A stretch of 64,000 nucleotides of DNA from Ptychodera flava (lineage: Eukaryota > Hemichordata > Enteropneusta > Ptychoderidae): the NCBI RefSeq assembly GCF_041260155.1, contig NC_091946.1, forward strand, positions 21,051,353 through 21,115,352. The letters are read 5' to 3'. The notes under the pieces were generated by a model that was given only the letters and a program-made list of their open reading frames with translations, ran no database searches and was not told the DNA's origin. A program made the position numbers and the translations under genes. Shown here one piece after another: positions 1 through 33,400 of this stretch (within the stretch, counting starts at the first letter, position 1; each line of letters begins with the position of its first letter).

Positions 1-3000
1 CCTACAGGTGGTACATCATGGGGTCAGGGGCGCCATCTTTCCAGCCTGTAGATAACCCTGCTTCATTTGCTGATGGTCTTATCGCCAGGGTAAATAAATA
101 AGTGCACAGTTAGATTTTTCTCCCCACTTATTCCCATTAATGTGATCTTTTTTTAATACCCAACAACTAATGTAACAGTATGGTACAGGTATGTGATACA
201 GGGTGTCATGAGGTGTCAAATTTCAGCTATCTTAGCTAGCGCCCTCTACAGTTTGGAATTGTACTCCACATCTGATTCACCTCACAAGGTCTTACATGCA
301 CAAACTCACAACATCTTTGTTCATTTCTCACCTCTCTTCTTCCTTTTCTTTCTCCATTTTGTTAAATTTTTTTGTGCTAATTTATTATGTAGCCTCCCTA
401 GGTAATGGAGTTTGAATAAACCCCCAAACAGGTAAAGGAAGTTCACGAATTTGATATATAAACTTCAATAGAAACCTACTCTTGCCATACTTTCAATACA
501 TTATGAAACTTAGAAAGCATAGCATGTAACTCTTAGTATACCTTATCCTTTTTCACAAAATTTTATCATAAAAGTAAAGTGTATTATGTAGTCAATATGA
601 AACCATCGACTATAAGGGTGTTGATTTACTGTTTATTTTATGCTCACTTTTACCTGTAGATAGTAAATTACAACTATGTTTATACCTTGAATGGCTGGTT
701 GTTGATTAATCCGTGGTGGTTGTGTTTTGACTGGGCGATGGGGTGTGTACCGCTCATAGAATCTATCACTGACCCCAGGCTGTTGGCCATAGTACTCTTC
801 TGGGCTGTCCTCGGAAGTTTGTTGGTGTATGGAGTGGTGTCACAAACTGGTCATGAAAAAAGGTAAGCTTTCAGAAGTTATAAATATAGTTTACCATAAT
901 AAGCTAACAATTTCATTGTACTTTTTCCCTTATGAATAATTCATTACAACATTGTCATTTGCTCATTCCAGCCAAATTTTGCAATACAAAAAGATCATGT
1001 CCGTTCCTGTTTTATTTCAGGTTATTGACAATGGCCCTGGCGTTGCTGATCATTCCGTTTCTGCCGGCAACCAACCTGTTTTTCCGAGTTGGATTCGTGA
1101 TCGCTGAACGGCAGCTCTACCTTCCGAGTCTTGGCTACAGTATGCTGGTCACACTGGGCCTGTGCAAGATATGCCACCGCAAAGAAAAGTGGAAAACGGT
1201 GAGAGAATCTTGCTTTCCTATCACATGGTCCATTAGGTTTGCTCCAGGAAAGTTCCGGAAAGTCCTATAATTTTAACACGCCAGGAAAAGTCCTAAAAAA
1301 TGAAATTAAGTTGTGGAAAGTACTGAGAAATCATTAAGCCAAGCACGATTTTCAAAAATCATGAAATGATCGAAAATGATATATAGAAATGATATATCCT
1401 TAAAATGACACTTGAAAACTGTGCATTAGACTCCAAGAAGTCCTTGAAAGTTGCTGAAAAGGCCTTGAAATCCTTAAAATATATGTGACTTTGAGAGTAC
1501 AGACCCTCCTGAACAATGATGTATTACTTGAGTGAATTTGAATTTTGATAAGGATTTATTGCCACTTGCGTATCATCCCTTTGTAGGTGCTAATATTTTT
1601 TCACCAAGTTGAAGAATTATGTCAAATATTCTCCGATATTGCACTCATGCCATCCCCCTAAATATGAGAATGTGAAGTTCAAAACCACTAAAAATAGTTT
1701 TATGAAATATTGAGTCAGACATTTTAAAGTGGATGTGCATATCCAGAATATGATGGGTATAGAAGGAATAAATTAGAATATCAAATGGAAATGTTTTTGA
1801 AATACCGGTACATATGGTTCAAGCCAGGTGGGATAAAAATACTGTTTGACTGGCATGTAGGAAAAAAGCTGGATAGGTCAAGAGGGATCAGTCAAGTGTA
1901 GTCAGTCCTAGATTGAAGCTTCAATTAATCCTAATCCTGCAAAGTTGCTGTAAATTTCACTGATTTTCAAGGGACTTAAAAGCTCACATGTAGATGCCAT
2001 TATCCTACCAATTCAGTGAGATTCAGTAATAGCCAGCCAAGTCTAGAGACAACACGGCATTGAATTTTAGTGGACTCAAAACTGCCAGCCAAACAAAGTA
2101 CTGTGGAATACTTTATTTTCACTTGGAATTTATTTTCGCTGGATTTTTTTCCACTAAAATAAAATCCAAGTGAAAATTTTGATTTTCTATACTTTGTATA
2201 CGAAGTGAAAATAAGATCACAGTGAAACATTGAAAGTCTGTTTTCGGCTAAAATAAATTCCAGTGAAAATAAAATAGTCACTTTACGTTCTTGTGACGTA
2301 TGAGACGAGTAAGTTGGCCAAATGTCACTTGCCTGGATGGATGGTAGGTGACAGACTTATCAGGAAAAAGGGTTTCAATTCGACTTTCAGTCTGTAGAAT
2401 GTAACTCTACACTGTTCACCACTTGAGCAGGCCGTGTCAAAGCAAGTTTGTAAATACAGCATACTGGTACTTCATAACATCTGCAGCAGTACTCCAAGCT
2501 TAGGCAGACCATCATATGTTGCATGACAATTATAATTCAAACCATGCGATCTGATAGTGTGGAATTTTGGATTAGGAAATCAACAGTTTAACTGCTGTAT
2601 TAAAGATGGCATGGTTATCAACCTGCAAAATGACATGTCAGCTGCTTCACATATCTATCAGATCCTTTGAAAATTACTCTTCATCAGCTTGATGCATTCA
2701 GCCAATTCACTTTTATATTCTGTCCAGTGAAAATATGCCAATCTCTCTTTGAAATGTTCACGCTTAGTTGATCAATTGAAATAACATCTGGCAGTTTTAT
2801 GAGCTCCCACTGGCACTGACAGCGTTGCATGTCACCGAAATGTTTCTGCCTATCAGTTATGTCATTTTCAAACCTCCAATGTCACAACCTTAATCACCCA
2901 TGAAGAGATTAAAATAGTGAAAAAGCAGTGTATAAATGTATTAGGTATTTAGTGACCCATTTTGTGTGGTACACTTGTTAACCCTAAACCGTGGTATTCC

Positions 3001-6000
3001 CTACTTAGCCACTGAGGGCGCACTCTTAGGTTTACACTAGATGCTTAGTGAAACTAAGCTGCAAATTTTCTTTCATCTCATGTCGTCCTTATTCATGACA
3101 AATCCTTGTGTCACATTATCACCAATATCAATGAAGGCCAAAAGAGAGAATTGTTCCTGGTCAGGGTGCGTGTCATGCAGAAGCTTTCACATCAATCCAT
3201 TTTTTGTCTGTTTCTGTAGAGCACAGATTGAGAAAATGAAGTATCAAAGTCTCAAGATGGTGTAGTTTATACAAACTTCTTCTTCTCCAAGAATTCAGAT
3301 AATCATTGTTGCCAAATTTTAGAAACAAGCCACGACCAGAAACACTGCTCTCCTTTACTGTATAATCATGAACACCATGTACATACATCAGATGATCGCC
3401 ATCAAAATTCATGTCAGCTCAATTATGTGAGGCTCTCCTTCACCAGAGAGGGCTCACTCCTAATGCCATGGACATTCTCCTGTTGCTTATTGTCAAAAAG
3501 GTACTAGTAAAATTGTTTCTTCAACTTGTTGAGAGATTTTTACATGCTCCTCCAATTTTTGTGTGATTCAGGCGGTCCAACTGCTGTTAGCAACACTGGT
3601 TGTGGTCAACATTGGAAGAAGTGTAGTGAGAAGCCATGAGTGGACGAAAGAAGAATTTTTGTACAAATCAGGTGCCAAGGTTTGCCCACTCAATGCCAAG
3701 GTAACATTTATAGATAATTATTTGGACTTTTATAGACTTTGCATTATGACTCTTTAAATGCCAGTGTCTTCAAACAGTACTTCTGATAAGATACACATAC
3801 AGAGAGTAACTACAAAGGATTTCTTCAACAGTGTTGATTTCATCGTCTGCTAAAACACAGTGCTGGTGTATTTGTCAATTCTTTCACCACCCAATATTGG
3901 TACAACATCATTGTAATCTGTGGCAAAGTCTTTAATAAAGGGAAATGGTGTGAGTAGATGTAAAGTTTTAGAGTAAAATGTACGGTGCAATGTAAAAACT
4001 TTAATATTGCTTTTCTATTTTTTTCTTGAACTCATCTTGACATGATATCAGTTCATACATATACATTGATTTTCCTATTCAACAAAAAGTAAAAAATTAT
4101 CAACATCCACAGCTGCCGTATCCGTACTTTATGATGTTCTTTTTCCGTCATTACAAAATACAGGTCCATTATAACATTGGTAAAAACATTGCTGATAAGG
4201 GAGACATCCCAGGAGCCATTGCAGAGTACAGGGAAGCCATTAGGTGAGCGGAAACCCTTCACATTCCATTCAGAGCTTCTGTAGATGTAATTTTTGAGCA
4301 TCTTATTGGGATATTTGTCCCATGTATCAACTACTATTTCATGGTCTACTACTAAAATCTTGTTGGGTACATCTGAAGAACACTGTTTGCTATTTCTTAT
4401 GAGAGTAATCAGGTTTACCTCTTAGACTTTCTATAGCTTGATGAAGTAACAGGACTCCCTAGGATTGTATCAATTTGTAAAATTGTCCAACATCAACCCA
4501 TTATTCTCAGGTCTTGTGTCTTGATGCAGTATGTAGCATACAGCGTGACAACACAATGCAATTTTATCTGGACACTGGACAAATCGAGTGCATATTCACT
4601 AATTTTGGCTGGCTGTTTTTCCCATGAAAACTTTTTCATCCACGAAGGGAGACATGACTGCTTTGAACCCTCAAAGTCCCCTAGCTACCTGTCAATGAGA
4701 ATATAACACCTGTTCAGCAAATTTTTATTAACTCCCTTTTGTTCTGTATTTTGATAATTGAGTTTCTCTGCAGACATGTTTATTTATTAATTTTTATGCA
4801 AAGTAAACAAAAAGGATGACTGAAACAGGTGTGCAATCATCTTTACAAAGCCATTTCCACCACCTAGTAGATATAGCAACTACACTCTTCTATCCCAGTA
4901 TGTAGATGGCTAGCAATGCGAGATACAAGATCAGATGTCTCCGACAATGATACTCTACTATAAACCTTGGTAACTGTAAGCTTGACTCGGATTTCTGTAC
5001 TTGTTTTTCTGAACACACTAGGCTACACCCAGAGTATGACCAAGCCATGAACAACCTTGCCAACATACTCAAAGACAGGGATGAAGAGTTAGAAGCCGAA
5101 AGCTTGCTGAGTAAGGCTGTTGAAATAAGGTGAGTGGAAATCTTTAAGCCTGGCTTTCCAGAACTGTGAGCTCCGGTGGTCTTGTTGTACTTGTTCGGAC
5201 ATTGAACATCTCACCTTGTTACGTAAAACATGGAACTTGAGGAAGAATGTAGTTTTTAAAGTGGTTAATTGATAATTTAGTTGGGGGGGGGGGGGTGCAG
5301 TACCATTATATACTGTAGAGGGAGGAAAAGATTATAGCTTATAAAGCAATTGAATGTTTTCTTAATACTTTATAACACTTTTCAGAGATTCATCTGTTAA
5401 CATATTTTTTTTTTTGCAAAAGGGTCAGCCAATATGCTGATGAAAGGAATTGCAAACGAAGAGAAAAATATGGATTTTTCAAATGAAAACGTCCTATTTT
5501 GATGGATTTTGAACAAAGTGAAAATTTGGAAGAGAAAGTAAAAGCTGCTTTGTAACTGTTCTCAGATAAAGTATTTGAAGATTTTTCCTTCGGCCAGCTA
5601 GTTCTCCCAAGTCCCAACATATCCTTTCCCCGTTATGGGGGTTCCAACTGTCTTCTACCTGCTACATTTTAACCCTCCCCTCCCCCACCCCCAGCAAACC
5701 TATGCAAACAACAACCCACCAAGCAAAAGAATAAGATTTCCTTGCCGGATAATGACGAACGCTTGCCTAACGCATACTAGAAGACATTGCCTACAGAGAG
5801 AGTGTATTAACATCTGTGATGCAAACAGGCCTGTTGATCTCTTTCCTTGAAATAGCATGGTTCAATGTTCAACTGACTGAACCTACAGAACTCAATACGT
5901 GTACAATGTGTACAGCCAATTATTACATATGTATTGCCGTTCCAAGTTGCACGTGAAAAAATAAAACTGTATTTTTACAAGCTGATATGCAAATTAGCAA

Positions 6001-9000
6001 AAATTAAAGTAATCCCTGTGTCTTTCTTTGGAAAAACGTAATTTCTAACATTTTATTCCCACGCTGTACACATATAACGGAAAAGGGATACGTCTGACAC
6101 CAAATTCATTGCAATATTTGGTCACAAAGTGATCAAAATCATAATTTGCCAAATTAATACCGCGCGCGACAAACTGGTATTTTTTATTAGGCGATATGCA
6201 AATGATATCATCCATATGCAAATTTAATAAACAACATCTTTGGGGAACTACTTTCTATTTGTAAATATTGTCGTCTGCAAACGTAAACTTAGCCCTTCAT
6301 GGAACAGCTAGAGGATAAATATTACGACTGGGTGCATTGTATGTACGTCAAACATTAGAAAGTGAATTTTATTACCCAGACGATGAGGAAAGTGTGAACA
6401 AAACGACAATGCAGGCCTTCGAAGTCGAAAACAGCAACTCAGCGATGGAGCCAGAAGTCGAACGCCCTTCAACTTCAACTTCGGCAAGCAAGAAACCGAG
6501 GTTCGTAAATTTCGGACGAAGTAGCTTCTTTTGTGGGCGACCACAAAAACAAGAATACCGTTTTGAAAACGAAGCGAGAGGTCGCCGTGTTTGAAGAATG
6601 GAAAACAGCAATGACGACAGAGAGACGTACGTTAACGGAAATACCACCGTCCGATCTTGATCCCCTCCTCGCGAAATTTTTTCTCGGCATCAGGAAGAAG
6701 AACGGCGACGACTACGAGCCGGACTCTATATCCAGCTACCAAAAATCAATCGAAAGGTGCTTGCGTGATAGTGACTACGGTGCTAGCATTATCCGTGACG
6801 AAGCGTTCGCATCAAGTCGTCGTGCTTTGGCAGCGAAACGCAAACAGCTCAAGGCAGCAGGAAAGGGGAACTTGCCAAACAAGTCCGAGGCGATAACATC
6901 TGAACATGAGAACACTTTGCTGAAAGCCGGTCAGCTCGGAGTCCACTCCGCATCGTCGTTACTTAACACCCTCTGGCTGAATAACACAAAACTATTCGGT
7001 CTTCGCGCCAGTAATGAACACCATCAGATGGAATGGGGTGACGTTTCCCTGGGGCATGATGAAAACGGGGAATATATCATCTACAACGAAAGGCTCACCA
7101 AGACTCGCCGAGGGGAACCAGGCAATACGCGAAGTTTTGCCCCAAAAGCGTACGCTACCCCGGCTTCTCCAGATACATGTCCCGTTATCGCGTACAAGAC
7201 CTACGCTTCGCGAAGACCCGATAAAATGAAATCTGCCACTTCGCCATTCTATCTAGGCATTGAATACGTTCCATGTACCATCAACAGAGGCATATGGTTC
7301 CGTAACCAGCGTATGGGAATCAACAAGCTAAACACGCTCATGAAGACGATGTCGAAAGCGGCCGGACTCACCGGTAAGCTCAGTAATCACAGCGCTCGGA
7401 AAGCTTGTGTTCAGCGACTCCTCGATGCCGGCGTTCCTCCAAACACCGCGGCACAACTTAGCGGACATAAAAACGTGTCAAGTCTCAATAGGTATGCTGT
7501 ACCTAACCAATGCCAACAACATCAGATGAGCAATATTCTAACCGGTGTACAGGAAAGCTACGACCCGCGACCGAGTAGCAGCAGTACTGCAGCCGTCGAT
7601 CGCGATTCTCATACTCCTTCGATGTTACCGTCAACAACCGCCGTCGTTCTAGAGCAATCAACCCCTTCCGTAATGACAAGCAACAACTTGAGTACGCTGC
7701 ATCACGTTCCTCAACTGCATGGTATGTTTGCCAATACCCAAATACATGGTGGAACTTTTATTTTCCACTTTAACGTTGCTGGGATGGATGGAAGTCAAAG
7801 GTCGACCGGCTCCTGTATCTCTCCGAGTAATACAAGTAAACGCCGTAGACCGTGTGTGATTTATTCTGACGATTCGGACTGAAACGATCCCCGAATTTCA
7901 AAATTTTGCCGCTTCTATTGAAAGCAAAATATGATGTGTTGTGTTCTCTGTTTGTTTAACTTTAACAAAGGTAATTTAATGACAAGTTTTCTCCGTTTTT
8001 TTGTGAAATAAAAGTTAGGATTTGTGATCTACGTGTACTGCTTCAGCGTTTTGTTTTCAGTGGGCGAGTGAATGAGCTCGAGCGAAGATGATGACCTCAT
8101 AAATTTACATATGAATGGACGTGTGTTAGCCAAGCCAATCAGAGACCTCATACAGAAACGTAATGGCGGCGAATCACTGGGATTTTTTTATGTAATATTA
8201 GTGCACTTCGCGATGCATTTTGCTGAATAGAGGAACATATGTAATAATAACAGAACCCCGTGAGCTCGCACAGCATTTTGAGGGATACTGAAGTTATTTT
8301 AACTCATGATGCGGCATATCCTGCGGCAGTACTTTTCACTCGCTTCGCTCGTGAAAAGTACTGCCGCAGGATATGCCGCATCACTCGTTAAAATAACTTC
8401 AGTATCCCTCAAAATGCTGTGCGAGCTCATGGGGTTCTGTCAGATTACCTTTTGTGTTTCCAACATTAACGTCTTCATGGTGTTTTGGTAAACAGACCAG
8501 AATTTGCAGCAGCCTGGATGAACCTTGGCATTGTGCAAGCAGGCTTGAAAAAATACACCCTGGCAGAGAAGAGTTACTTCAGTGCATTAACACACCGAAG
8601 GAACTACCCAGACTGCTATTTTAACCTTGGAAATCTGGTAATTGCTGTCTGTTTTTTCCTGTCGACCATTACTTAAATGTTGTCTTCCATTTCTTGATAA
8701 CACTTTAAAAATCCAAATGTCGTCATCAAGTGCTGTTGTCATGACAACAAATGTTCTTCTTAGCTACTCTCGTCTTCTCTGTCTGTTGTTTTTGTCATCA
8801 AATTGGAAAAAATCCTGTTTTAAAGGGTCTGCAGCTGTAGCTTTTAATTATTTTTTTCACTATTTTAATTTTGTATGCCAGTGTCAAGTTCTTATTCTGA
8901 ATTCCCCAAAGCATATTAAAATTACATATATGTAGCTTACCAACACAGCATCTATACATTTAGAATGCACTGTCATGGTTTATATTTTAATTATTTGAAT

Positions 9001-12000
9001 TCTAGTCTGGACCAGAATTCAGTCGTCAACAATAACAATGCAGTTTGCACATGTACAGGCTGAGTTGTACAAGCTGAACACTGTGTAGCTCAACATGCTT
9101 TGGAGAGCAGAACAGGAAATTGTAGTAGACATTAAAAAACAAAAATAGTGAAAAAGGTATTAAAAATTACAGCCACTGGTCGTTTAATACCAGTGTTGAA
9201 CTGACCAGTCATATTAAAGCTGATATCTTGATGTATTAAAACAGTAAATATCATTTTAGTGAATTTTTTTTTTTGGTAATAACAATGACACGGCAACACA
9301 ATGATTTCAAATATCAAAAGTCTCATTCATTACACAACAAAATGGAAGAAATGGCAGAAGAGAACTTTCTAAAAGTTGATATCCAAACAATGATATGTGT
9401 GATTGATTCATAACTTCAAAGTTGTAATGATTATTGTCTCATCCAAAGATCTTTACTCTGCTGTCTATCATTTTCATGCTAATGGCGTGTGGCAATACCA
9501 TTTATGCTGTGTAACTTTTTTGACAAAGTGAAATAAAAAAAACAAGCTATCAGAACCCAAAATGGCAAAAAATTAAACATTTTTCAGTTTTGTTGTGATT
9601 TGTCAAGACCATCAATAGAGTCAAATATACTTTGAAATTATTTTTAAATGCAGATTGTGTTGTACTTTATTTGAAATTTCAAAAAGAAATACTGCAAAAT
9701 CTGTATCACTGGAATAAGAAAAGTTTAGTTAGCAGGTAAAATTCCATTCAACATGGCTTGTGATCGTAAAATTTGTCCATAAAGACAGTTTATCCAGTGA
9801 TTATATTGTTAGATGTTCCTTACGTTGCCATGAATGTTGAGCTATTCATAACATAGACTGGCCCACAATTCTATTAGCCAACAGTGCAAATATTCCTGCA
9901 TATTTGCTGTGAATCAAACTTTGTCAAAAAGTTACATTTAGCATTATAACATAGTAAAAACTCGGCGTCATTTTTTTCCGTGGGTCTCCATGGTCTCCAT
10001 TTCAATCTGTCAGTGCATGTTGCATGTCTCTTTCATTTTCCTTTTTTTACCATTCTCCCAATCTTTCTTCATGTGTCTCCTTATTGTGTGTGCTTGTGCG
10101 TTGCCCTGTAGTACTTAGACCTGAATCGAATCCCAGAAGCACTGCGAATGTGGAACAATGCAACCCACTTGAAACAGCGCCACCTTCAGGCATGGAGCAA
10201 TATAATCCTTACATTAGACAACGAAGGTGAGAGGTCAATTTTTGCCTGGCCTGTTCGGTTTCATATTTCATACCCAGCCTTCCCTGTCTGCCTTGTGCTT
10301 CCATATAGGTCCTTGTGTCTGTAAAGTGTGTTTGTCAGAGCATACACCAGTAACTAGGCTTTCCAAAAAACATATAGGTTAACCCTTTCATCACTGTGGT
10401 TTGAACCAATCCCATTGTTTTCTATGGTGAAGTTGGACCTCTAGAGAGGGAAATAGGGATGACAGCACTAATGGATCAACAAGCGCAGTCGTTTGCAGAG
10501 AATTCATTATTTGAAAGAGTCCAATATTTATCCTAGAACCTTGAGTGAATAAAGTTAATCCGGTATAATCCTGGTCTGGTATCTGTGTATCTTCCCTGTC
10601 ACAGACTGGATCAGGAACACAAATTTTTAGTTTCATGAAATAAAAATTACTTCATGATCACAACTGCAGCTTAATGACACCATAGAAATTTATTGTATCA
10701 CTCTGACTGAGAATGTCAAATCAAGCAAACTCAACTACCAGAACTCTTTCTCTCTGACCAACACACTTTATAATACATATATAGATAGCGCTTCTTTTAA
10801 AGGCAGGCAATCTAACAGTTACTACATAGACCCTCGAGATGGTTACTACCACAATTGTAATATTCATTTGTCTGGTATTTTCTCTCTCAGTACCTGGAAC
10901 AAGAGTTACACCAGGCTGCCTTACAGGCATGGTTTAATGCCACTTCCCTTAAGCACGATCACAAAATGTCTTGGAGCAATATAATAGCACTTCTTGATAA
11001 CACTGGTAAGATACGCTTTACTAACCTACGCAATCTGATTGGTTGGTCTGCTGCTTAGCTGATGATTTGATATGCTGGTGTCATTCTGCCTCTAACTTTT
11101 CATTGGGTGAGGAATTTCATTGGGTGAGGAATTTTTGAAGCTGAATATTTTAATTGGTTGGTTTTCTGTCGTCTTTGATTTCATCTCTCTTTGAAATAAT
11201 TTCTACAATCTTTTAAAGATTACATGGTAAATGGGTAAAATCTGTTCACCAGCTATTCACAGAAGTTACCTAACACTAGTACTCATGTTTCTGTTACAGA
11301 GATCTCTGGTTAACATCACACCTCATAACTACACTTTTATCTACTTCATGAGTTCTGTTTTTAATCCTATCGTAATGCACCGTAAACTTTTTTCAATAAT
11401 CTGACCATGTAACCAAACTTAAAACAAAAACAATTAGGTCTTCAGTGTTTTTTCCAAGGTTTGGAAATATAGGAAGTTGTTTTTGAACTAATGTATTACA
11501 ACACTGTTATAGGTTAATGTGGCTGCTTTGCATAAACCAACCAAAACCATCGTAAATTTACTACATGCCTAGACTGAAACCGGTGCCAATAGAAGGAGAC
11601 CGAATACGCACAATTCATTTGGACACAGTTTTACAGAAAAAAGCCATCTGTTTTATCGTCATTTTCTGAACCACAAACAATTACAAAATGATACACTGTA
11701 ACCAAATGTGCTGTTGGTTGCTGTAACATTCTTGAAAATATTTATACCTTTTTTATATCAGTAGTGAATATGAACGTAAATTTCATACTTCCAAAAGTGC
11801 CTTCTCTCTGACTCAATAGTTTAACTGTGCATGACAAGCCCTTCTTACATACATGTAGGTGTTTGGGTCAAGTTAAGTTAGAAAATTAAATTTTATTACT
11901 CAGAATCACAGTTTTTACTTTAGCCAATTCTGAATTAATGTTGAAAATGTCAAAAAAAAACAGTTGCAACTGCTTCAGCCATATAAATTTTGATCAACAT

Positions 12001-15000
12001 TGCATCACTTCTGTCCTTCATGGGTGAGCAAACCTTGGAGTTCAAGGTCTTGGACAGCCAAATGTTTGCAAAGACCAGTGACTTTGCTATTCCATCATTT
12101 TGATGAAACACTATATAGCCTTAATAGTCTAGTGATTAGCCATGATTGACCTGTTAATAGCCACAATAGACCAGTGATTAGCCTTGATTGACCAGTCAGT
12201 AACTATGGTGGACCAGTGAGTAGCCATGTCAGTAAGTAACTACACGTAGAATAGACCAGTGATAAGCCATATGATAGACTGGTGAATAGCCACAATAGAT
12301 CAGTGACTAGCTATGATAGATCATTGATTAGGCATGATAGAATGGTGAATAGCCACGATAGACCAGTGATTAGTGATGATAGAATGGTGAAAAGCCACGA
12401 TAGACCAGTGATTAGCTATGATAGAGTGATGAATAGCCACGATAAACCAGTGATTAGCCATGATAGAATGATGAATAGCCATGATAGACCAGTGATTAGT
12501 GATGATAGAATGGTGATGATAGAATGGTGAATTGCCACGATAAACCAGTGATTAGCCATGATAGAGTGATGAATAGCCACAATAGACCAGTGATTAGTGA
12601 TGATAGAATGGTGAATTGCCACGATAAACCAGTGATTAGCCATGATAGAGTGATGAATAGCCACGATAAACCAGTGATTAGCCATGATAGAATGATGAAT
12701 AGCCATGATAGACCAGTGATTAGTGATGATAGAATGGTGATGATAGAATGGTGAATTGCCACAATAAACCAGTGATTAGCCATGATAGAGTGATGAATAG
12801 TTATGATAGACCAGTGATTAGTGATGATAGAATGGTGAAAAGCTGCGATAGACCAGTGATTAGCCATGATAGAGTGATGAATAGCCACGATAAACCAGTG
12901 ATTAGTGATGATAGAATGGTGAATTGCCACGATAAACAAGTGATTAGCCATGATAGAGTGATGAATAGCCATGATAGACCAGTGATTAGTGATGATAGAA
13001 TGGTGAATTGCCACGATAAACCAGTGATTAACCATGATAGAGTGATGAATAGCCATGATAGACCAGTGATTAGTGATGATAGAATGGTGAAAAGCCACGA
13101 TAAACCAGTGATTAGCCATGATAGAGTGATGAATAGCCATGATAGACCAGTGATTAGTGATGATAGAATGGTGAAAAGCTGCGATAGACCAGTGATTAGC
13201 CATGATAGAGTGATGAATAGCCATGATAGACCAGTGATTAGCGATGATAGAATGATGAATAGCCACGATAAACCAGTGATTAGCCATGATAGAATGATGA
13301 ATAGCCACAATAGAATGATGAATAGCCAGTGAATAGCCATGGTAGACCAGTGAGTAGCCATACGATAGACCAGAGAGTAGCCGTGTTACACCAGTGAATG
13401 CTCATGATACACCAGCAATCAGCTGTGATACACCAAATATTAGTCAAGATAGACTGGCTTGTAGCTGTTATGCCGGTAGACCAGTGATTAACCATCATAA
13501 ACTAGTCCTTACATGGCCCTATGATGGAAAAGTAAATAGCTATAACAGACCAGTGATTAGCCATAATAGATCAGTGAATGACCCTGTGATTAGCCATGAT
13601 ATGCACTTGTTTCCTAAAGAATGTAAGAAGGACACCATAGGACAACAAGAGTACTGGATTTGCTCATCCCTGGTCTTGTTGTCTCATGAACATAGATGTA
13701 GTGAATATATTTGTAGGAAACGTGCTTAGAGTTTGTCTCTCTATCATTATATGCACTTGCAGTGTGTAAGTATTCAATCTAAAAAAAAAAATTGAAATTT
13801 CCTAGTTTACAGAAGAATTAAAATGTTACTCATGATTTCTTTGGTCTGTAATACCAAGAAAATTCAATGAAAAACATTTTCCCTGTCTGCCTGCAAAATA
13901 GGAATTTGGAAGTCTGTTACTGTGCAGAATAGGAAATGCACCGCTGATGCAAAGTTTTTGTGTAAATTTTATCCGTCTTGCAATTTGCAAGTCCCACCCA
14001 GCAGGACATGCATATGTAATACAGACCTGTGATCGCCTTCATTGCCACATCTCTTTGTCATTTGCTGTCACAATAGGCCAGTATGATGCCGCTATACAGG
14101 CTGCTCAAGAAGCTCTCAAGTATCTCCCTGATGAAGATGGTCTCTTCTTTGGCATGGCAAACGTCTACGGCAAAACTGGCCAGTACCATGTAGGTGAACT
14201 CAGTCAATTTTTGTATTTTTCATTTCTTTTCAGAGTGACATTGACATTGACATTCACTTTTTTATGGGTATGTAGGTTCATGACCTGTACAAATCGCTTT
14301 TAGAAAAACAGAAGTCAGTGTTAGAATGACTGTTGAAGATAGATCATCCAAAACTGATTCTGATTGTAATTCTGATGATGACTGACTTGGATTCAATATC
14401 TCAGGTGTTTGGTGATGCAGAGTATAGTGATCAAGGGTACCAACCATCACTTCGTCATATGGTACAGATTCTTTGCTCTTGTGCATACGATAGAAATATC
14501 CTTGAAATAGTAGTTCAGGTTCAATCATAGTCAGAACCCCACTTGTCATGATTTGCAAACTTATTGTCCAGCAACAGCATAAAAATAAACACAATCAGCA
14601 TTTGAAAATGAATGTGATACTGACTCTGTCTTTTCTCTTCTGCCTATTCTCCTCTCCTTTCAAAAATTTTTCCGAAACCAAATTTTTTTTTAACATGAAA
14701 AAACTATATTCACAGCTTCCTCGGAAAGCTGTGGTTTTATTGGTCTAATGGGCTGACACCATTTCAATAATTTCATCATAATTATGAATATTTAATTAAC
14801 ATACAGTGCTGACGTGACAGCTGAGTATATTCATCCTATCACATTTCTGAATAGGAAGCAGAAAAATATTTCTTGAAGGCGGTGTCACTGAAACCTGAAT
14901 CGGCGAACTACCTTGGCAACCTGGGAGTTCTGTATCATCGTTGGGAGAAGTATGAGAAAGCTGAGAAATACTACAAGAAGTCGCTGGAAATTGAGCCGAA

Positions 15001-15070
15001 CAGTCCAACCATGGCACAGAATCTGAATAAACTCTATCGGAAGATGACCAAGAGTAACAAGAAGACATAA
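1..15070 (+). CDS. TMTC4: TMTC4 orthologue, 3' part (protein O-mannosyltransferase with TPR repeats)
   Basis: Multi-exon gene cut by the left edge. Coding exons with GT/AG borders and matching phases: 1(or 8)-89, 660-862, 1021-1198, 3572-3700, 4164-4243, 5022-5129, 8496-8637, then 10112-10226 or 10891-11005, 14077-14189, 14855-15070 (TAA). This gives about 457 codons of a protein that is about 740 residues in human. Visible landmarks: [10 protein letters not shown] and [13 protein letters not shown] before the DUF1736-type segment, the membrane segment with [13 protein letters not shown] and [11 protein letters not shown], then [19 protein letters not shown] leading into TPR repeats ([61 protein letters not shown]). 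The order and motifs match TMTC4 rather than TMTC1-3. Family knowledge: TMTC1-4 are ER membrane GT-C enzymes that O-mannosylate cadherin domains, with the TPRs in the lumen. The N-terminal catalytic half lies outside the window. Exon 8 exists in two alternative copies (see separate entries). Confidence 0.93.
2370..2440 (-). other. Decayed tRNA-like sequence
   Basis: On the minus strand, GCTCAAGTGGTGAAC resembles box A. A perfect five-base anticodon-type stem follows, GTAGA-(GTTACAT)-TCTAC, with T33 and anticodon TAC (Val). The T arm (AAAGTCGAATTGAAAC) does not pair and a T5 run follows. Probably a pseudo-tRNA or SINE remnant in a TMTC4 intron. Confidence 0.3.
6337..7882 (+). pseudogene. Crypton-type tyrosine recombinase gene (DUF3504 family), probably frameshifted near its N terminus
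   Basis: Intronless gene inside the TMTC4 intron 5130-8495, same strand. The main frame is open from 6509 to a TGA at 7880-7882. Numbered from a GTG at 6533, the 448-residue reading has the tyrosine recombinase set: Arg158 ([11 protein letters not shown]), H-x-x-R at 286-289 (NHSARK), His312 (LSGHKN) and Tyr321 (LNRYA). This arrangement is that of Crypton elements and the domesticated ZMYM2/QRICH1/KIAA1958 C-terminal domain. Upstream, a different frame (ATG at 6337) encodes an acidic, Ser/Thr-rich leader ending in KKPRFVN at about 6510, where the main frame has a TAA at 6506-6508. The natural leader therefore seems displaced by a small indel around 6510. Otherwise the first in-frame ATG is at 6611. 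The catalytic domain is intact and codon-like, so the copy is young or selected. A poly(A) signal AATAAA lies at 8007-8012. Confidence 0.8.
8251..8439. mobile_element. 189-bp near-perfect palindrome (fold-back MITE or Crypton-associated terminal structure)
   Basis: Two 89-bp arms (8251-8339 and 8351-8439) separated by an 11-nt loop. The ends read CAGAACCCC and GGGGTTCTG. Only a few mismatches are visible, around CTCATG versus CTCGTT and at CCCCG versus CATGGGG. It ends 56 bp before TMTC4 exon 7, in the region where a branch point is expected, and lies 370 bp after the recombinase stop. Whether it belongs to the Crypton or is an independent insertion cannot be told from one copy. Confidence 0.85.
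8820..9187. mobile_element. TTAA-flanked MITE, family A
   Basis: Bounded by TTAA at 8820-8823 and 9184-9187. The ends resemble inverted repeats: AAAGGGTCTGCAGCTGTA at the left and TTACAGCCACTGGTCGTTT at the right. The interior contains an imperfect palindrome around GAATTCTAGTCTGGACCAGAATTC. Related copies in this window are at 46506-46826 and 60446-60900, with an internal fragment at 32229-32350. TTAA target sites point to a piggyBac- or Kolobok-mobilised non-autonomous element (inference). Confidence 0.75.
10112..10226 (+). CDS. TMTC4: TMTC4 alternative exon 8a
   Basis: 115-nt exon with acceptor ending CCCTGTAG and donor GTGAGA. It enters at phase 0 and leaves after the first base of a Gly codon, which the exon at 14077 completes. 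It encodes 38 residues of a TPR segment, from [18 protein letters not shown] to [11 protein letters not shown]. The DLNR motif makes this the copy closer to the vertebrate sequence as I remember it. It contains an N-A-T sequon, which is also present in copy 8b and would face the ER lumen. Confidence 0.88.
10891..11005 (+). CDS. TMTC4: TMTC4 alternative exon 8b (tandem duplicate of 8a)
   Basis: 115-nt exon, 664 bp after 8a, with a strong pyrimidine-rich acceptor (TTTTCTCTCTCAG) and donor GTAAGA. Entry phase 0 and exit phase 1 are identical to 8a. The 38 encoded residues run from [20 protein letters not shown] to [11 protein letters not shown] and match 8a at 19 of 38 positions. TPR structural positions (A-L, W, NAT-LK, H, WSNII, LDN) are kept, while the first-helix surface has changed. 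No stop or broken splice site is seen. Using 8a and 8b together would add 230 nt and shift the frame, so at most one can be used per functional mRNA. Confidence 0.85.
12127..13602. repeat. 21-bp minisatellite (42-bp higher-order period) in a TMTC4 intron
   Basis: About 1.5 kb of tandem variants of GATAGACCAGTGATTAGCCAT, roughly 70 units by length. In the centre, alternate units differ (AGTGATTAGTGATGATAGAATGG against GAGTGATGAATAGCCACGATAAACC), giving a 42-bp dimer, with longer blocks repeated (12417-12540 against 12640-12760). The outer units are more diverged. Because 21 is divisible by three, long open frames appear on both strands. These are artefacts of the period, not genes. It sits in the intron between exon 8b and exon 9. 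Confidence 0.95.
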
Positions 15071-15266
15071 TATTGTGGTGAGCAATCTTTGTGGTTTCAT
15101 TCTTATTGCCTGATTGTCAATTCTGAGTGAAATGGGGTCAGGCACAGCCAGAAATATGTGAACTTCATTTATGTTCAACAGATGAAACCAGTGCAAAGCT
15201 TGCAGTCTTTCATATTGTGTCAATTAGTGTGCTTAGAAGAGGTCATGTGAGGGCAGTATGAATACT

Positions 15267-15461
15267 TTAAAGGTATACTGTCACCTGTTCCAATTTTGCC
15301 ACAGTTACCATGGAAAGAGAAAATCTAACCAATCACAGATTTTAAGCTGGTGGCCGCTTTTTTAAAAAACAGCGCCCTTACATGGGCAATTTGAATACCA
15401 AGGAATGCCCCTTTTACTGTATATGGGCATATTTAGATTACAGGTGACTGTATACCTTTAA
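15267..15461. mobile_element. TTAA-flanked MITE, family B (195 bp)
   Basis: Exact TTAA at both ends with near-perfect terminal inverted repeats: AAAGGTATACTGTCACCTGT and ACAGGTGACTGTATACCTTT. No coding capacity. It lies about 200 bp beyond the TMTC4 stop codon, so it is probably in the 3' UTR or just past it. Confidence 0.85.
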
Positions 15462-18400
15462 ACCACATAGCAGGCAGTGGTAGTACTTTCAGAAGTTTAC
15501 AGCACTACCAAAAATGACTCAGCGTAAATTTAATACTTCAATTTCACATGATTTTGAAATTCTTTCCATGATAGGAAATATAGCTCCAAGCTTAAACATA
15601 GCCTGTTGCGTTGTGGATTATTCTTTTGATTCTGAGTGTGAGCAAAGTTGTCTCATGAGGTATTTTCATCGTACAGCCACAGTCTTTGTTTCAGATTGAG
15701 TCAGGATTCAAAATGTTGATCACATCAGGTTGTGTCAATGTACTCGCGCTATCTCACTTTTCTCTGATATATGTTTGAAATACTAAGTCTGTGTTTGTTG
15801 TTACGTCTGTCATAGGCACAATAATTCTTCACTGAAGTTGCAGCTGAGATCCAAACCAAGACTCTGAAGACAGAAGAAAGAGATGCGAGGCGAAAAATCT
15901 TGAGATCGAGAAAGAGGCCAAAGGTTATTTTCGACTGTGACAATCAATGAATGGTTTTTTGTACAAATGACAATTTGAAAAAGATTGTAAAAAAAACAAA
16001 CAGTAGCTAGTATATTGATATTTCTAAGTTGTTTCAAGAGCACATTTAATTGCAATGAGGTTAAGTTCCTATGGGCCTTGAATATTAGACGATTTCCTGA
16101 GTTACAAAGCAAGTGCCTCTCCACATTTGCAATGATTAGGTGGGTTTTTTAATTCACGTCTTCATGACCAAGTATATTTTTATACTTCGTATGCTCTTTG
16201 CACGGCTGTGCATGTCCCATGAGAGGACCTTTATTCCAGGGAAGTCAACTTAATGTGACAAATTATACATGACATATCAAAAGTCACAGACCCGTTTGGC
16301 AAAGTCTTGTTTCCAACAGTGTGGTTGAGTCCATAGTCTGGGAGAGAGGGGTGGCAGGATACCCCCTGCCACATTGTGAGCATGTACAAACCTCTGCATC
16401 CCTGGACTCTTTGTCAGATCTCCATAATGCGGTCCAACAGTCATACTAGTAAAACTTTCAATGTACAGGGGCCAAAGGGTATTGCAATAAATTCATCTTG
16501 TCTAATAAAATAGCACTGATGACAATAAACTGTGTGGTAGTAAAAAGCAATTTTCATTAACATTTGATCAGGAAACTGAATATTTTCATGTGTTATTGTA
16601 AATTGTTGTATATGACAGTCATTAATTATCAAAATCCAGTCAATGCTATTTCTAAGGAACCGAGGTGGCCATGTAGGAATATTTTTATGTTTATCCCTCT
16701 CAACTTTTTGCCAGAATATCATTTGACCAGAAAAGCTTGTGAGGATATTTCCATATGCACTAGAAAGGTTCTATGTTCCACGACAAAAACAAAGATGTAT
16801 ATCTATGATGCTCCACTCAGATAAACAGTGACTTCCTGGTATGTCTTTCAAAGATATGTAAAATTCAGATGAAGTGCTCAGCTCATGATAGGAATAGTAT
16901 AAATTTGTTCACAAATTTTCTTTTTGAGGCAGGCAAAAGCTGGTCTCTGTTGAATGTATATTTGAAAAAAATGATTTCAAGTCATCCGAAATAACAGTTC
17001 AGAATCTGTAAATATTTGCAAGAATATAGAAGTGCTGTGACACATGATTATTGTGTCGGATAAACGATTGATAATTAGAATTAGAATTCAGTAAAGGCCT
17101 GACCTGTTCACTTTTATATCTTCATATGAGATAATGATATGTAAGATGATGCCTGATTGGTCGAATTCAAGAGTGCCAGCAGATTGTAAATATTTCCAGC
17201 CAATCATCAATGCTCATATGCATTAGTAATCATGTAAAGAATAAATTTTGAAGCAGAGGAGATGGACAAATCCTTATCAAAGAATTGGAATATTTGTGCC
17301 TTCTTCCAATATCACTGATGCAGACTACCATTTGTAAAACATTAAACATATATTTTATGGTGAATGTTGGAATATTATATTGATCTAAAACATTGAAAAT
17401 ATATTTTACTGTATTCTATCATTAACTAAGAATTCTCTTCTAGAAAATAGCAGACCACTTCTTGAATTTCAAAAAAGAGTAAAAAATATGTAATATTTTC
17501 CATGAAGAAAGTTTTTATAGCAAGATCATAATGATTCCATATCTCAGAATATCTAGCTTGAAAAACTTCCAAGTTTCTAGAAGAAAGGGCACATTTTATA
17601 ATCAGTTTAATAAGATGGGAAGTAAATTCAAAATATTCATACATTTGTAGTGTGGACAAAGTTGTTCTGAAGTAGATAGATTTACAAAGAATGAAATCAG
17701 TTTGTCTCACGCAGCTATAAGTGGATGAAAGCTTTGCCCTTGTGTGATTGCAAGCATCGAATTTCATTCATTGTGTATGTGCATGGTGTATAAAAGCTTC
17801 AAACAATTCTTTAGGTTTTGCCAACTGTGGGGGAAATGGTGTTCCTTTTCAGTGCGTTTGCAGCGAACCCAAGGACTGTCTGGATGGACGAAAGAATGAC
17901 TTGCCAACATGTTCTATGGGTTTTTTGACACCAGAATACAGTCACTACTGTAGGAGGGTGGTCCACACCAGTCTTGCAACGCTTTTCAGATATTTTGGGG
18001 TGTTTCTGCTGTAGGCAAATCGATAAATTTGCACAACAGGTGTGCTGATGTCGTAAAATTTTCCAACTATTGCAGACAGCCCACTCTAATGAACTGAAAT
18101 ACTCCACATAATTGCCTATGTAAAACAGTGGGCCAGCTTCAGCTCATTAATTGTAGTGGATTATCAAGAGCTCTGATACGTACCGGTATAATGTCTTGAA
18201 TATATGGAGGACCATTGTTACGTTGACATAATTTATGTCTACTTTCAGGGGTGATACCATGTCAGACATAATAAACTCTATTTTTCCAGACTGTTGAAGT
18301 AGCTCACAGATGTTGTGTGGGTATCAGAAAAAAGTAGGGCATAAAAGCTAGGGCATTTCTGTTCTGTTTATGAGGGTTTTTAGTACCCAAGCACAGCAAT

Positions 18401-20336
18401 AAGCGTATTTAAAAATTAAAGCAAATACCCTTAACCTTATACTGCAATGGGATATTCATAACAAGTTCAAAATATACATGATGTTCTAGAACTATATTTC
18501 CTGTTCTTGTACATGTATATTTTCAAATGAAGGTTAATTTTTTATCGGAAAGTATGAAATGAAAGTGCCTTCTCTTTGTTAAGAAATTTTCATAACGAAA
18601 AATTAAAAATAAATTTAGGGCAATGTGGGGTATATGTAAGTTGTTGACTGAACCGACTCACTGCCAGTCGCAAGCCATGCATGGCAGGCAACACATGTAC
18701 TGCTAAAATTTATTCATGTGTTTTCATTTTGAATTAACACTATATTAAGATCGATTACAAATTCATCAATTTTGTCCAGACTGACTGACAAATCCATCTT
18801 AAATGTATATTCAGAATCTATGGTTAACAAATTTGATATCAGTGAAATTGCGTTCATATTTATATCTGTTGTAAGAAAACCGTGGTTTTAAATTTAGTTC
18901 ACAGGGATGTGTGTTTTTGTAAATAACAGTCAATGTCAAATCTCAAAGAGAGATGGTTACTTTTTGAAAGGGGATGATGACATTGGAGGGTACTAATGCA
19001 ATCACAAGTTCATGTTTGTTTGCAAAAGTTCTGTGTAATCATGGATTTTAGATTGAATAGGTATGTTACTCTCTGAATCCTAAGAATTTCCATTTCTTGT
19101 ATGTTAGTTTGATTGATTCTTGCCAAAATTCTTGTTTTCCATTTATATGGCAACACGAAAAAACTGAAGTCTTTTAGAATAACAAGTTTCAGAATGGTTT
19201 CTTCATCATTGAGTATATTTTCCATCCTCCGGAATTTAGTGATGTCATCATCTCTTCCACATCATTAGATTAGTTTGATGCAAATGCAGGCTTGGCAGTG
19301 AAAACCAGATTTTTTTCTTCCAGTCCTTAACCTTCAGCTAAGAATAATGCCGCTATGTAGTCAATTGGAGTATTGTTGCATGGCTTTTGACAAGCCTTCA
19401 TCAAAGATTTTGAACTGTATATAATTTCTTTATGTACAAGTAGTTCTGTTTTCATGTCCTCTTTATATTGTCATTTCTGATATATTTTGCAATCATATGA
19501 AAGGTTTGTTGTTTTGCAAGTTTTCAACCGTCTTTCTCAAATTTTTTGTACTTTTGCTACCAGCCATGGCTGACGTGACCTTAGCTCAGAGAAGTACCAT
19601 ACATACAATACAAATGATGTGCAGGGATGCAATAAAGGATGTATTGATAAATAGATCACACAGGGAGTAGGTATAGAATTACACTTGCATGTGGGTGTAT
19701 TTAATCCCAGCTGATTTGCGCAAGGGTATTGAAAATTAACTGATAAAATTGAGGTATTATATGTTTCTGTAATTAGTTGGTTTGAAAAGCTTTACAGTGG
19801 TTGGTTTTCTTTGCAGCTGGTGTCTGGGAAAACAGCTATTTAAAATTTGTGTAAATATGTCAAATGGTGTAATTTATTGTAATTTGTGTAATTTATCAAT
19901 TGTCTCTTTTTTGTGGTCTTTATGTTTGCTGAAATAATTGAACTGTATGGTGCACTTTTTTTCACTGTAATAGAGACACTCTCAGACTAAATTTTGAAGT
20001 TTTTGCTAAATTGTGCAGGTCAAAGAAGAAGCAGGTTTTCGATGAAGCAAAGGCAAAGCTTTTGTATGTTAGGGTCATACATTTATGAAAGTGTGAAAGG
20101 ATTATTGTCTTAGGAAACTACAGTGAATTTTCTTCTTTGTGAAATTTGTATAAATGCAAAGAATTAAACTCTCATACAATGCTATGTGTTAACTGTGCAA
20201 TTTTGTTGTTCACAAATTAATTCTAGTGTTAGTTGCTGACTATTCACTTGTTGGTAGTAACATTGACCATTGCACACATTCAGATAATGTGAAAGAGACA
20301 ATAGCTGTAACTTAAGAAGATGTATCATATTTGTCT

Positions 20337-30400: not shown

Positions 30401-33400
30401 CAGTAAAGGTCAAAGAGATAAAGTCAATGAAGAACACCAGGGAGCTTTCACAACGTTGTTTAGCAACTTGAGCTCTAGGATTATAATAGTTTGTAAAATT
30501 GTCCAGTTTGGGCCAAGTGTTCGATCTTCTCACTCGTTTTCATTTGTTTGTACGTGTAGAAAACACAAGCTGAAAACCATAGATAAATAAATATGTTTAC
30601 CATGATAAATATGAATATTGCTATATTAAACTCACTACTCAGCACACAAGGTTTGTAGTTTGCTGGTATGGCATTACCATTAGCTTATTAGCATACCAGA
30701 CATACATAAGAAATTTATCACCGTTTATTTCATTTGTTCAGTCTATGAGCAGGGCTAATGTGATTCCAGAAGCTTCACCAATTTTACTTTCCTTTTCTAA
30801 CTTTGTCTAATTGAAACATGCAACCATGTAAGTTCTTTTGTTCAAGTTGTTTGGGTTGCTATCAGTGTTGCTTGCAAACTGAAAAGATAGCTTTTATTAT
30901 TTCACCAAATCAAGAATGACGAAAGGAAGGTGTGTCCAGATGTCTTGCTAAGAGGCTCACCCTAAAAGTAGATTTTCCAATCTCCTGGTTGAAAGGTTTT
31001 TTCAATTTTCATGATCCCCTAGGATTATAGAAAGGATATTCAAGCAATGAATTTTTTTTCAATGAATTATAAGTGAAATCATAGTTGGGAGAAATGAAAG
31101 GCATACTCGACCAATTTCTTCAATCTTCGAACAATCTTTTTTTATAAAACCAATTTTACTTGCCTTTATAAATAAAGATCGTTTGAAGATTGAAAAAAAA
31201 CGGTCAAGTACATCTTACTTTCATTTCTCCACACTGTGTCAAGACTTTGCTGTACGCCCGCTTCTTCCAGATGACTTCAATAGTTGCAGTTTGACTGAGT
31301 CTATTTCTTGGAATTCTGAACTCATAGTTATAGCGCCCTCTATCAGAATATTAGTATTTTGCTATGAAACCATGTGTGTTTTTCAAATTTGTTCTGTTGG
31401 TGTCTGTAGTCAAATTTTTTCTCTAATTTTAGGAGACATTGAAGAGGTATATTGGATAGCCCAGTGTTTATATCTGACAGGCCAGTACCACAGGGCTGTA
31501 CATGCCATTAAAAGTAGAAAATTTGACAAGGTAAGTTGCTTATCAGAGAGCTAGGTAAACAATATTACTCTTCTTGTCAGATTCATTGTGGGATTTATTA
31601 AAACTGGTTATCCTGAAAGTCAGACAGTGTTTTGACAGTTTCCAAGCCACCGCCATTGAAGAGAATCTTCTTAGCATTTAACTGCTATTCTCAGCTGGGT
31701 GTATTCTTTGTATGATATTCTCATAAAATTTATTCTGCGATGTCAGTCATTGAACTGCTGTGTGACATTTCATGTCCATTGATTGCAGCAGTGCCATTCC
31801 TCAAACATTATAAGTTCAAATTTGGTCATTGTGATGGTAATGGCAACCAAAATCTGAAAACAATATTTTAAGAGTTTCTTCTGTAATTATCAGAATATTT
31901 CAGCTGATGATTGAAGAATTGTGGCTTTGATCTGCAGAAAAGATCCATCGGATATAATCATGTACCAGAACAAACCTTCATGGAAGTTCGAACTAACATA
32001 TTGTTCTTTCTTAATTCCTGCCCCTGCAGAAAGACATTGCTTGTCGATACCTAGCTTCAAAGTGTCATGTAAGTTCTAGTGATGTAATTTGTCATATTAA
32101 GGCTTAGTCATTTGTATCTTCCCACACTTATAATTCTTCTGTTCTAAATATCTCTTACATTTTTCCCTACTATGTAACTTGTCATCACAGCGTGTGTATG
32201 TGTAAAATTCACTGTTTTTGTTTACATTTGAATTCTAGTCCAGACCACCAGAATCCACTCGTCAACAATAACAACACAGTCTCCAAATGTACAGGCTGAG
32301 TTGACAAGCTGAATACTGTGTATATAAACATACTCTGGAGAGTGTAAAAGAAGCGATTACATGCTTTTCGAACCATGTGGATGGAAATTTAAAAGTTTTG
32401 CAGGACCAAAGTGGCAAAGTTAAATTTTTTGTGAATTATTTGTGGGACATAAAAACTATTAATCTGTTCACCCCTAATTCCCTGTAAACAGATCCACTCA
32501 CACCATTTATAGAAATGGGTTTGGACCAAACCATGGTGGTGAAAGGGTTGTAATGATCCTTTCTCTTTACTGTTTTGTTATTTCAGTTTGAATGTAAGGA
32601 GTACCAGGAGGCATTGGATGTCCTGGACATGATCGACTTCACTGCAAAAACACCAAACAAACATAAAAAGGAAGAGAGCATGGTGTCGGAGTTTGACCAT
32701 GGAATACCTCAATCGCAGGTGAATAAGTGGTAGTGAAGTATACAGTCATGTTTTTCAGCAAACTTGGCAATGCATGCAGACTCTGTGTTAATGGAGGAAA
32801 GTCTACCATTAGTGTTGATACTTCTGTAAAACAAAAGATTGTGACCTCTTGGCCATGGTGGCAGTGTTGTCAGCTGCTTGTTTTAACTTTGTTTCTCAAT
32901 TATATCACAGTCCCTCCCTAAAGATATATTTATCAGTAATGCTACAAAAACAAACAAAAGATCATGTCCTTCCACTGGTGATGGCGCTGTTGTTATCAGT
33001 GAACACGTAATGAAATTTCTAAGCTATTTGCCAATGTCTTTTTATCAACTCTTAAAAAATTGAGATTTTATGAAATTCTTACTTTATCTTCCGATTTTCC
33101 AGTTGAAAGGCTCCATGTGTTTACTCCGAGGAAAAGTTTACGAAGCCATGAATAACAGAGCCCTGGCAGCGGAGAGTTACAAGGAAGCGCTACAAGTGGA
33201 TGTGTACTGCTGTGAGGCTTTTGATTTACTAGTACGGCATAATATGCTGACAGCAAAGGAAGGTACTCTTCCAATACTTATCATAACCTCTTCTTTTCTT
33301 TTTCAAGAGAGGTATATTGAAGTACCCAGTATTTAGCCTAGCAACTCCAGGCTATCTATGCAATGTTCATGTGTGTAACATGCAAATTGTAACTTTCTTC

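Follow-up and report, generated by a model that had tools for sequence, protein, structure and literature searches.

Tandem alternative exons are known from FGFR2, where the IIIb and IIIc exons are accompanied by RBFOX-type motifs and by a stem in the intervening intron. TMTC4 belongs to a family of ER-membrane O-mannosyltransferases with a lumenal TPR arm; to our knowledge, the target recognised by the TMTC TPR arm is not settled. Human TMTC proteins carry their TPRs in the ER lumen (sections of PMC7801869), TMTC enzymes have been linked to cadherin O-mannosylation (sections of PMC11292533), and for TMTC4 links with hearing loss and with the unfolded protein response have been described (sections of PMC10807715). 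In the human atlas of mutually exclusive exons (MXEs; Hatje et al., 2017; sections of PMC5740500), 20 genes, 71% of those with validated MXEs in the cross-species comparison, had incompatible frames, joint inclusion leading to NMD. Words beginning with TMTC are absent from the main texts of PMC5740500 and of PMC4465641. A separate observation in sections of PMC7801869 concerns TMTC1: two human records differ at residues 245-312, with similar length, and its authors suspect a sequence error; alternative exons would be another reading of that difference.

Here a pair of exons, A and B, is described in the TMTC4 gene of the hemichordate Ptychodera flava. The window (the whole stretch of DNA that was analysed) comprised 64,000 nucleotides of contig NC_091946.1, positions 21,051,353 to 21,115,352. 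From the genomic sequence we consider it likely that A and B arose by an old tandem exon duplication in TMTC4 and that the copies are spliced one-or-other, in which case the animal can probably produce the enzyme with either of two lumenal arms. An earlier, sequence-only reading of this DNA had proposed the pair and knew of no TMTC4 isoforms of this kind; likewise, no report of such isoforms was found in the open-licence literature searched. The gene was modelled as follows.

Window, + strand: 3' part of the TMTC4 gene, its 5' end lying beyond the window
1..89, + strand: portion of another TMTC4 exon farther upstream, open up to a GT and resembling the crinoid protein; placed by eye, outside the spliced model
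660..862, + strand: TMTC4 membrane-region exon, in the spliced model
1021..1198, + strand: TMTC4 membrane-region exon, in the spliced model
3572..3700, + strand: TMTC4 exon from the membrane region to the start of the TPRs, in the spliced model
4164..4243, + strand: TMTC4 TPR exon, in the spliced model
5022..5129, + strand: TMTC4 TPR exon, in the spliced model
8496..8637, + strand: upstream TMTC4 TPR exon with the donor common to A and B, placed by splice model, open frame and TMTC4 homology
10112..10226, + strand: exon A, the first copy (YLDLNR...LDNE), 115 nt, phase 0 to 1
10227..10890, + strand: intron between A and B, 664 nt, U2-type GT-AG
10891..11005, + strand: exon B, the second copy (YLEQEL...LDNT), 115 nt, phase 0 to 1
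14077..14189, + strand: downstream TMTC4 TPR exon with the acceptor common to A and B, in the spliced model
14855..15070, + strand: last coding exon, including the stop codon, in the spliced model

The spliced model reads open with either A or B, giving 427 residues to the stop codon. A protein search was done with the A form, and 942 of 7334 candidates passed E<=1e-20. The best-matching homologues are TMTC4, as the sequence-only reading had named the gene. Among the best 120 of the 942, the names were TMTC4, the generic dolichyl-phosphate-mannose--protein mannosyltransferase, and hypothetical or unnamed proteins; the best listed match was a TMTC4-like protein of the crinoid Anneissia japonica (59%) and the second a TMTC4-like protein of Branchiostoma (57%). 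The spliced query aligned over its whole length to TMTC4 proteins having a membrane GT-C region followed by TPRs, and TPR families were matched in Pfam. Exons A and B and the stretch 14077-14190 (in a non-coding frame), scanned singly against Pfam, gave no match, because single repeats are too short. An ER-lumenal TPR arm and a role in O-mannosylation are putative for this protein, by analogy with its family and the human topology. A tree was built from 18 rows with the exon masked; 17 of these were hand-picked for spread from the 120 listed proteins, with the crinoid as the sole ambulacrarian among the 17. In it the window protein groups with the crinoid (bootstrap 88, SH-aLRT 93), in line with an ambulacrarian source.

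The coordinates proposed for the two exons, 10112-10226 and 10891-11005, are correct: both are 115 nt long, preceded by AG and followed by GT, and run from phase 0 to phase 1. The flanking junction positions 8637 and 14077 are likewise right, and the count of 19 identical residues out of 38 between A and B was reproduced. The two are adjoining internal exons of equal length and the same frame, of GT-AG type and homologous, which are the criteria for MXEs. Donor scores, computed with assumed base percentages, were 83 for A and 79 for B, compared with 65-92 for seven other donors of the model. Pyrimidines occupied 13/20 positions at -24..-5 before A and 16/20 before B (12-16 in eight other acceptors). 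Neither U12-type sites nor a too-short intron was found at the pair; since the sites are ordinary GT-AG and the intron is 664 nt long, steric exclusion and U2/U12 incompatibility were rejected as mechanisms.

Reading frames were followed through each splicing outcome. Use of exactly one copy keeps the frame and gives the full-length protein. Joint inclusion of A and B shifts the frame, as had been stated earlier, and brings a stop codon 181 nt upstream of the last junction. Skipping both copies also shifts the frame, with a stop 22 nt past the last junction, in the last exon. A stop 50-55 nt or more upstream of the last junction invites NMD. From these stop positions the A+B product is predicted to be NMD-prone, whereas the double-skip product is expected to escape; the predicted filter is thus asymmetric, acting only on A+B, and an mRNA lacking both copies might persist and yield a truncated protein. 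The claim that the frame enforces one-or-other use therefore needs dividing: wrong products would be disposed of, but the splicing choice itself is not enforced by the frame.

We propose an old tandem duplication of one internal TMTC4 exon, after which both copies were retained as alternatives. The donor at 8637 would be spliced to the acceptor of A (10112) or of B (10891), and the donor of the chosen exon (10226 or 11005) to 14077, with A+B products cleared by NMD. The choice of exon may be made by splicing regulators or by RNA structure in the intron. Choosing one copy over the other would replace helix B of one TPR, the turn before it and helix A of the following repeat, leaving the framework and the sequon unchanged. 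The isoforms would then share a fold and differ in their surfaces, which might adjust the arm's geometry or its binding to a partner.

To place the swap within the TPR arm, the register was taken from the consensus TPR structure 2fo7, in which positions 2-134 match query residues 39-171 at equal length. The exon begins at TPR position 11 and ends at position 14 of the following repeat, and so holds the end of helix A, the A-B turn and helix B, followed by helix A of the next repeat. The sequence-only reading had the first helix as the part that differs. The densest differences lie instead around the A-B turn, at TPR positions 13-19, where 7/7 residues differ. Its statement that the TPR framework and the N-A-T sequon are kept agrees with our count, eight framework sites being the same in A and B, and with these kept the two isoforms are expected to fold in the same way. 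Neither copy retains the canonical Pro of TPR position 32, a site outside our framework count; A has Gln there and B has His. The groove and framework positions are those customary in the TPR literature and are assumed here. With these lists, no enrichment of differences in the groove was found: 4/9 groove positions differ versus 15/21 other non-framework positions, and so there is no sign of the groove as the target of the swap. A swapped binding groove is unsupported on these counts, and an altered outer surface or arm geometry would fit as well as a groove change. Different cadherin or partner specificity of the two variants, as suggested in the earlier reading, would be a guess.

The homology of A and B was assessed over all 18,172 open windows of 38 codons on both strands. 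Against A, exon B scored 90 and the next best window 18, and no window other than B shared more than 10 identities with A. AG and GT at the right spacing flanked 57 of the 18,172 windows, A and B included. Segments were then scored against 43 distinct orthologue segments from the 120 proteins; mean scores were 109 for B and 104 for A, and the third-ranked score was 9, among six windows retained by a pre-filter (more than 15 against either copy). By these comparisons A and B are diverged copies of one TMTC4 exon. Since TPRs resemble one another, the two might be different repeats alike only as TPRs, with B belonging to another transcript. This is very improbable: on the + strand of bases 1-20000 the other exons of the gene showed no equal-length ungapped copy beyond TPR-to-TPR likeness, and the best between-repeat score in the TMTC4 gene reached 61 across 47 residues, whereas the pair scores 90 across 38; A and B moreover match the same TMTC4 segment, with the next pre-filtered window at 9. 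We give hardly any credence to an assembly or haplotype artefact, or to chance similarity. A protein identity of 50%, together with intron flanks showing no clear similarity (21/60 and 20/60 bases identical), makes the copies too diverged for alleles, and chance is excluded because B alone among the 18,172 windows matches A strongly.

Constraint was estimated with a pairwise codon model of A versus B, which gave an omega of 0.077 from a single pair of 38 codons at a near-saturated distance; omega 1 was worse by 9.27 lnL and omega 0.5 by 4.45. Codon positions agreed at 21/38 first, 23/38 second and 13/38 third sites. The outcome points to purifying selection on both copies, as far as one 38-codon pair can tell. 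Sites differing between A and B are also more variable among 17 orthologues (mean entropy 1.34 vs 0.47, p 0.0013). All 10 residues invariant in these orthologues are present in B and 9 of them in A, which has Met where 17/17 show Ala. The motif W-x-N-A-[ST] is present in 120/120 listed proteins and in both A and B. Rates were tested on a tree fixed from the remaining TPR region (225 columns) with a coarse grid of multipliers. The window branch was about threefold too long for A (2 delta lnL 5.95) and for B (4.78), corresponding to p of about 0.015 and 0.03 by our own chi-square conversion with 1 d.f., uncorrected. Nine of the 17 other terminal branches gave at most 2.70 in the same test, and the maximum over ten half-overlapping control blocks from the TPR region of the window was 3.11. 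This acceleration fits divergence of both copies after the duplication, for which it gives modest support. Exon-level protein searches were limited to proteins of up to 1.75 times the partial query (about 723 residues) with at least 3 shared 5-residue words, excluding full-length TMTC4. So restricted, they yielded 2 B-like candidates, none at E<=10, and 0 A-like candidates.

The same data bear on whether only one copy is in real use, the other being a duplication relic that is spliced rarely or never. A and B are slightly less conserved than the neighbouring TPRs, with mean identities to 14 chosen orthologues of 19.5/38 (A) and 20.0/38 (B) compared with 22.6/38 for 38-residue blocks elsewhere in the TPR region; both evolve faster than those neighbours, and A has Met at the otherwise invariant Ala. 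However, the means of the two copies are so close that the less conserved one cannot be named, and both have good splice sites. Had one copy been unconstrained over most of its history, omega would by our own estimate reach about 0.5 or higher, a value disfavoured by the codon model as given above. A relic is on balance doubtful. Partial relaxation of both A and B is possible, because they fall below the conservation of the TPR region, A carries the Met and both have lost the Pro. It is less probable still that the pair is mainly an expression switch, in which regulated A+B inclusion feeds NMD and the protein difference is minor. The stop 181 nt before the last junction suits such a switch, but a pure poison exon would need neither constraint at the protein level nor a kept framework and sequon. 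One-or-other splicing of an old exon pair is our preferred reading, and two functional enzymes would be a tentative further step.

The age of the duplication was considered from the crinoid protein. Identity between A and B (50%) is lower than that between the window protein and the crinoid (59-60%). By-eye counting showed that the crinoid segment has 7 A-only and 6 B-only residues in common with the pair. Like A and B, it is without the Arg of W-R-N-A-T, which 12/14 orthologues keep, and the Pro of L-K-P, which 13/14 keep. A tree of the 38 exon columns joins A to the crinoid rather than to B (support 74/77); three other groupings were not rejected (p-AU 0.467 each). On this basis we raise, tentatively and as less likely than not, the idea that the duplication came before the split from crinoids. 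Ambulacrarians generally might then make two TMTC4 forms, with TPR arms unlike at one repeat junction and switched by cell type, perhaps via RBFOX-type sites and an intron hairpin, which would place cadherin O-mannosylation or the handling of ER stress under splicing control. The Anneissia TMTC4 record is labelled isoform X1, and a second version may exist.

Two candidate regulatory features were found around the exons.

10014..10026, + strand: two TGCATG motifs, the second ending 86 nt upstream of the start of exon A
10285..10809, + strand: putative long-range RNA hairpin within the A-B intron, with arms at 10285-10340 and 10752-10809

TGCATG, which we take to be an RBFOX-type motif, occurs as a pair within 20 nt only once in the window, and 1 of 2000 simulated 150-nt pieces (0.0005) held such a pair. 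TCTCT was seen 5 times near the exons (0.9 expected), partly in B's own pyrimidine tract. Neither statistic is corrected for having scanned 7 motif classes in 4 flanks. The hairpin consists of a 19-nt inverted-repeat core and a longer nested stem. Its core score was reached by 0/300 shuffles and by 19/191 window tiles of the same size, and folding of the whole A-B intron was ordinary (z -1.77; 2/20 shuffles as good). The count of G-U to A-C changes, 4 to 1, is too small to separate RNA selection from a decaying transposon, and the hairpin could be a transposon remnant. As evidence for regulation it was rejected, since 19 tiles reach its score and the intron folds ordinarily; it is kept as a lead. 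A search of Rfam at 8400-14300 gave no match at the gathering threshold. The TGCATG pair and the hairpin would accordingly count as regulatory leads only.

Other features of the window were recorded alongside the gene. The TMTC4 intron 5130-8495 holds a 457-codon stop-to-stop frame (6509-7882, + strand) matching DUF3504 (E 2.1e-25) and a phage-integrase-type recombinase (E 6.8e-12), which we take to be a Crypton-like tyrosine recombinase transposon. Downstream of this frame, at 8250-8440, lies a 90-nt inverted repeat with arms 96% complementary and 11 nt apart, perhaps a foldback element. A 57-nt repeat, 88% identical, is present at 9011-9067 in the intron before exon A and again at 32247-32303, and is perhaps a dispersed repeat. 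The intron after exon B contains a minisatellite at 12115-13415 (42-nt units of two 21-nt halves, about 31 copies); read on the minus strand, the array stays open for 301 codons at 12496-13401. Neighbouring TMTC4, a stretch at 31066-31551 (+ strand) matches ANAPC3 (E 4.3e-7) and is presumably CDC16/APC6-like.

Isoforms that differ at a single TPR junction and nowhere else would offer a ready-made natural experiment on the role of the TPR arm. Among solved structures, the highest-ranked natural relatives of the TPR region were OGT TPR superhelices (PDB 1w3b, 7yeh and others), for 7yeh with a gap-free alignment over 171 residues and for 1w3b over equal lengths; OGT is an O-GlcNAc enzyme, unlike TMTC. 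No TMTC was named among the best 60 of 145 solved structural relatives, nor among a further 8 and 6. Other TMTC4 proteins, of vertebrates and invertebrates, are the same gene with the same TPR segment and carry W-x-N-A-[ST] throughout those listed. Each is listed with one version of the segment, in a database clustered at 90%, in which isoforms would merge. Compared with FGFR2 IIIb/IIIc, the RBFOX-type motifs and the intron stem are possible parallels to the leads at A and B, whereas ESRP-type GGTGG is absent from the four 150-nt intron flanks of the pair (0.3 expected). The MXEs in the sections of PMC5740500 and PMC4465641 (Abascal et al., 2015) considered here were validated by RNA-seq or proteomics, while A and B are known from genomic sequence alone. 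The exon pair is of an ordinary type of exon duplication, and the part for which no earlier report was found is TMTC4 as the gene concerned. Like the MXEs that arose by tandem duplication in those two sources, A and B agree in length, frame, homology and GT-AG sites, and have incompatible frames.
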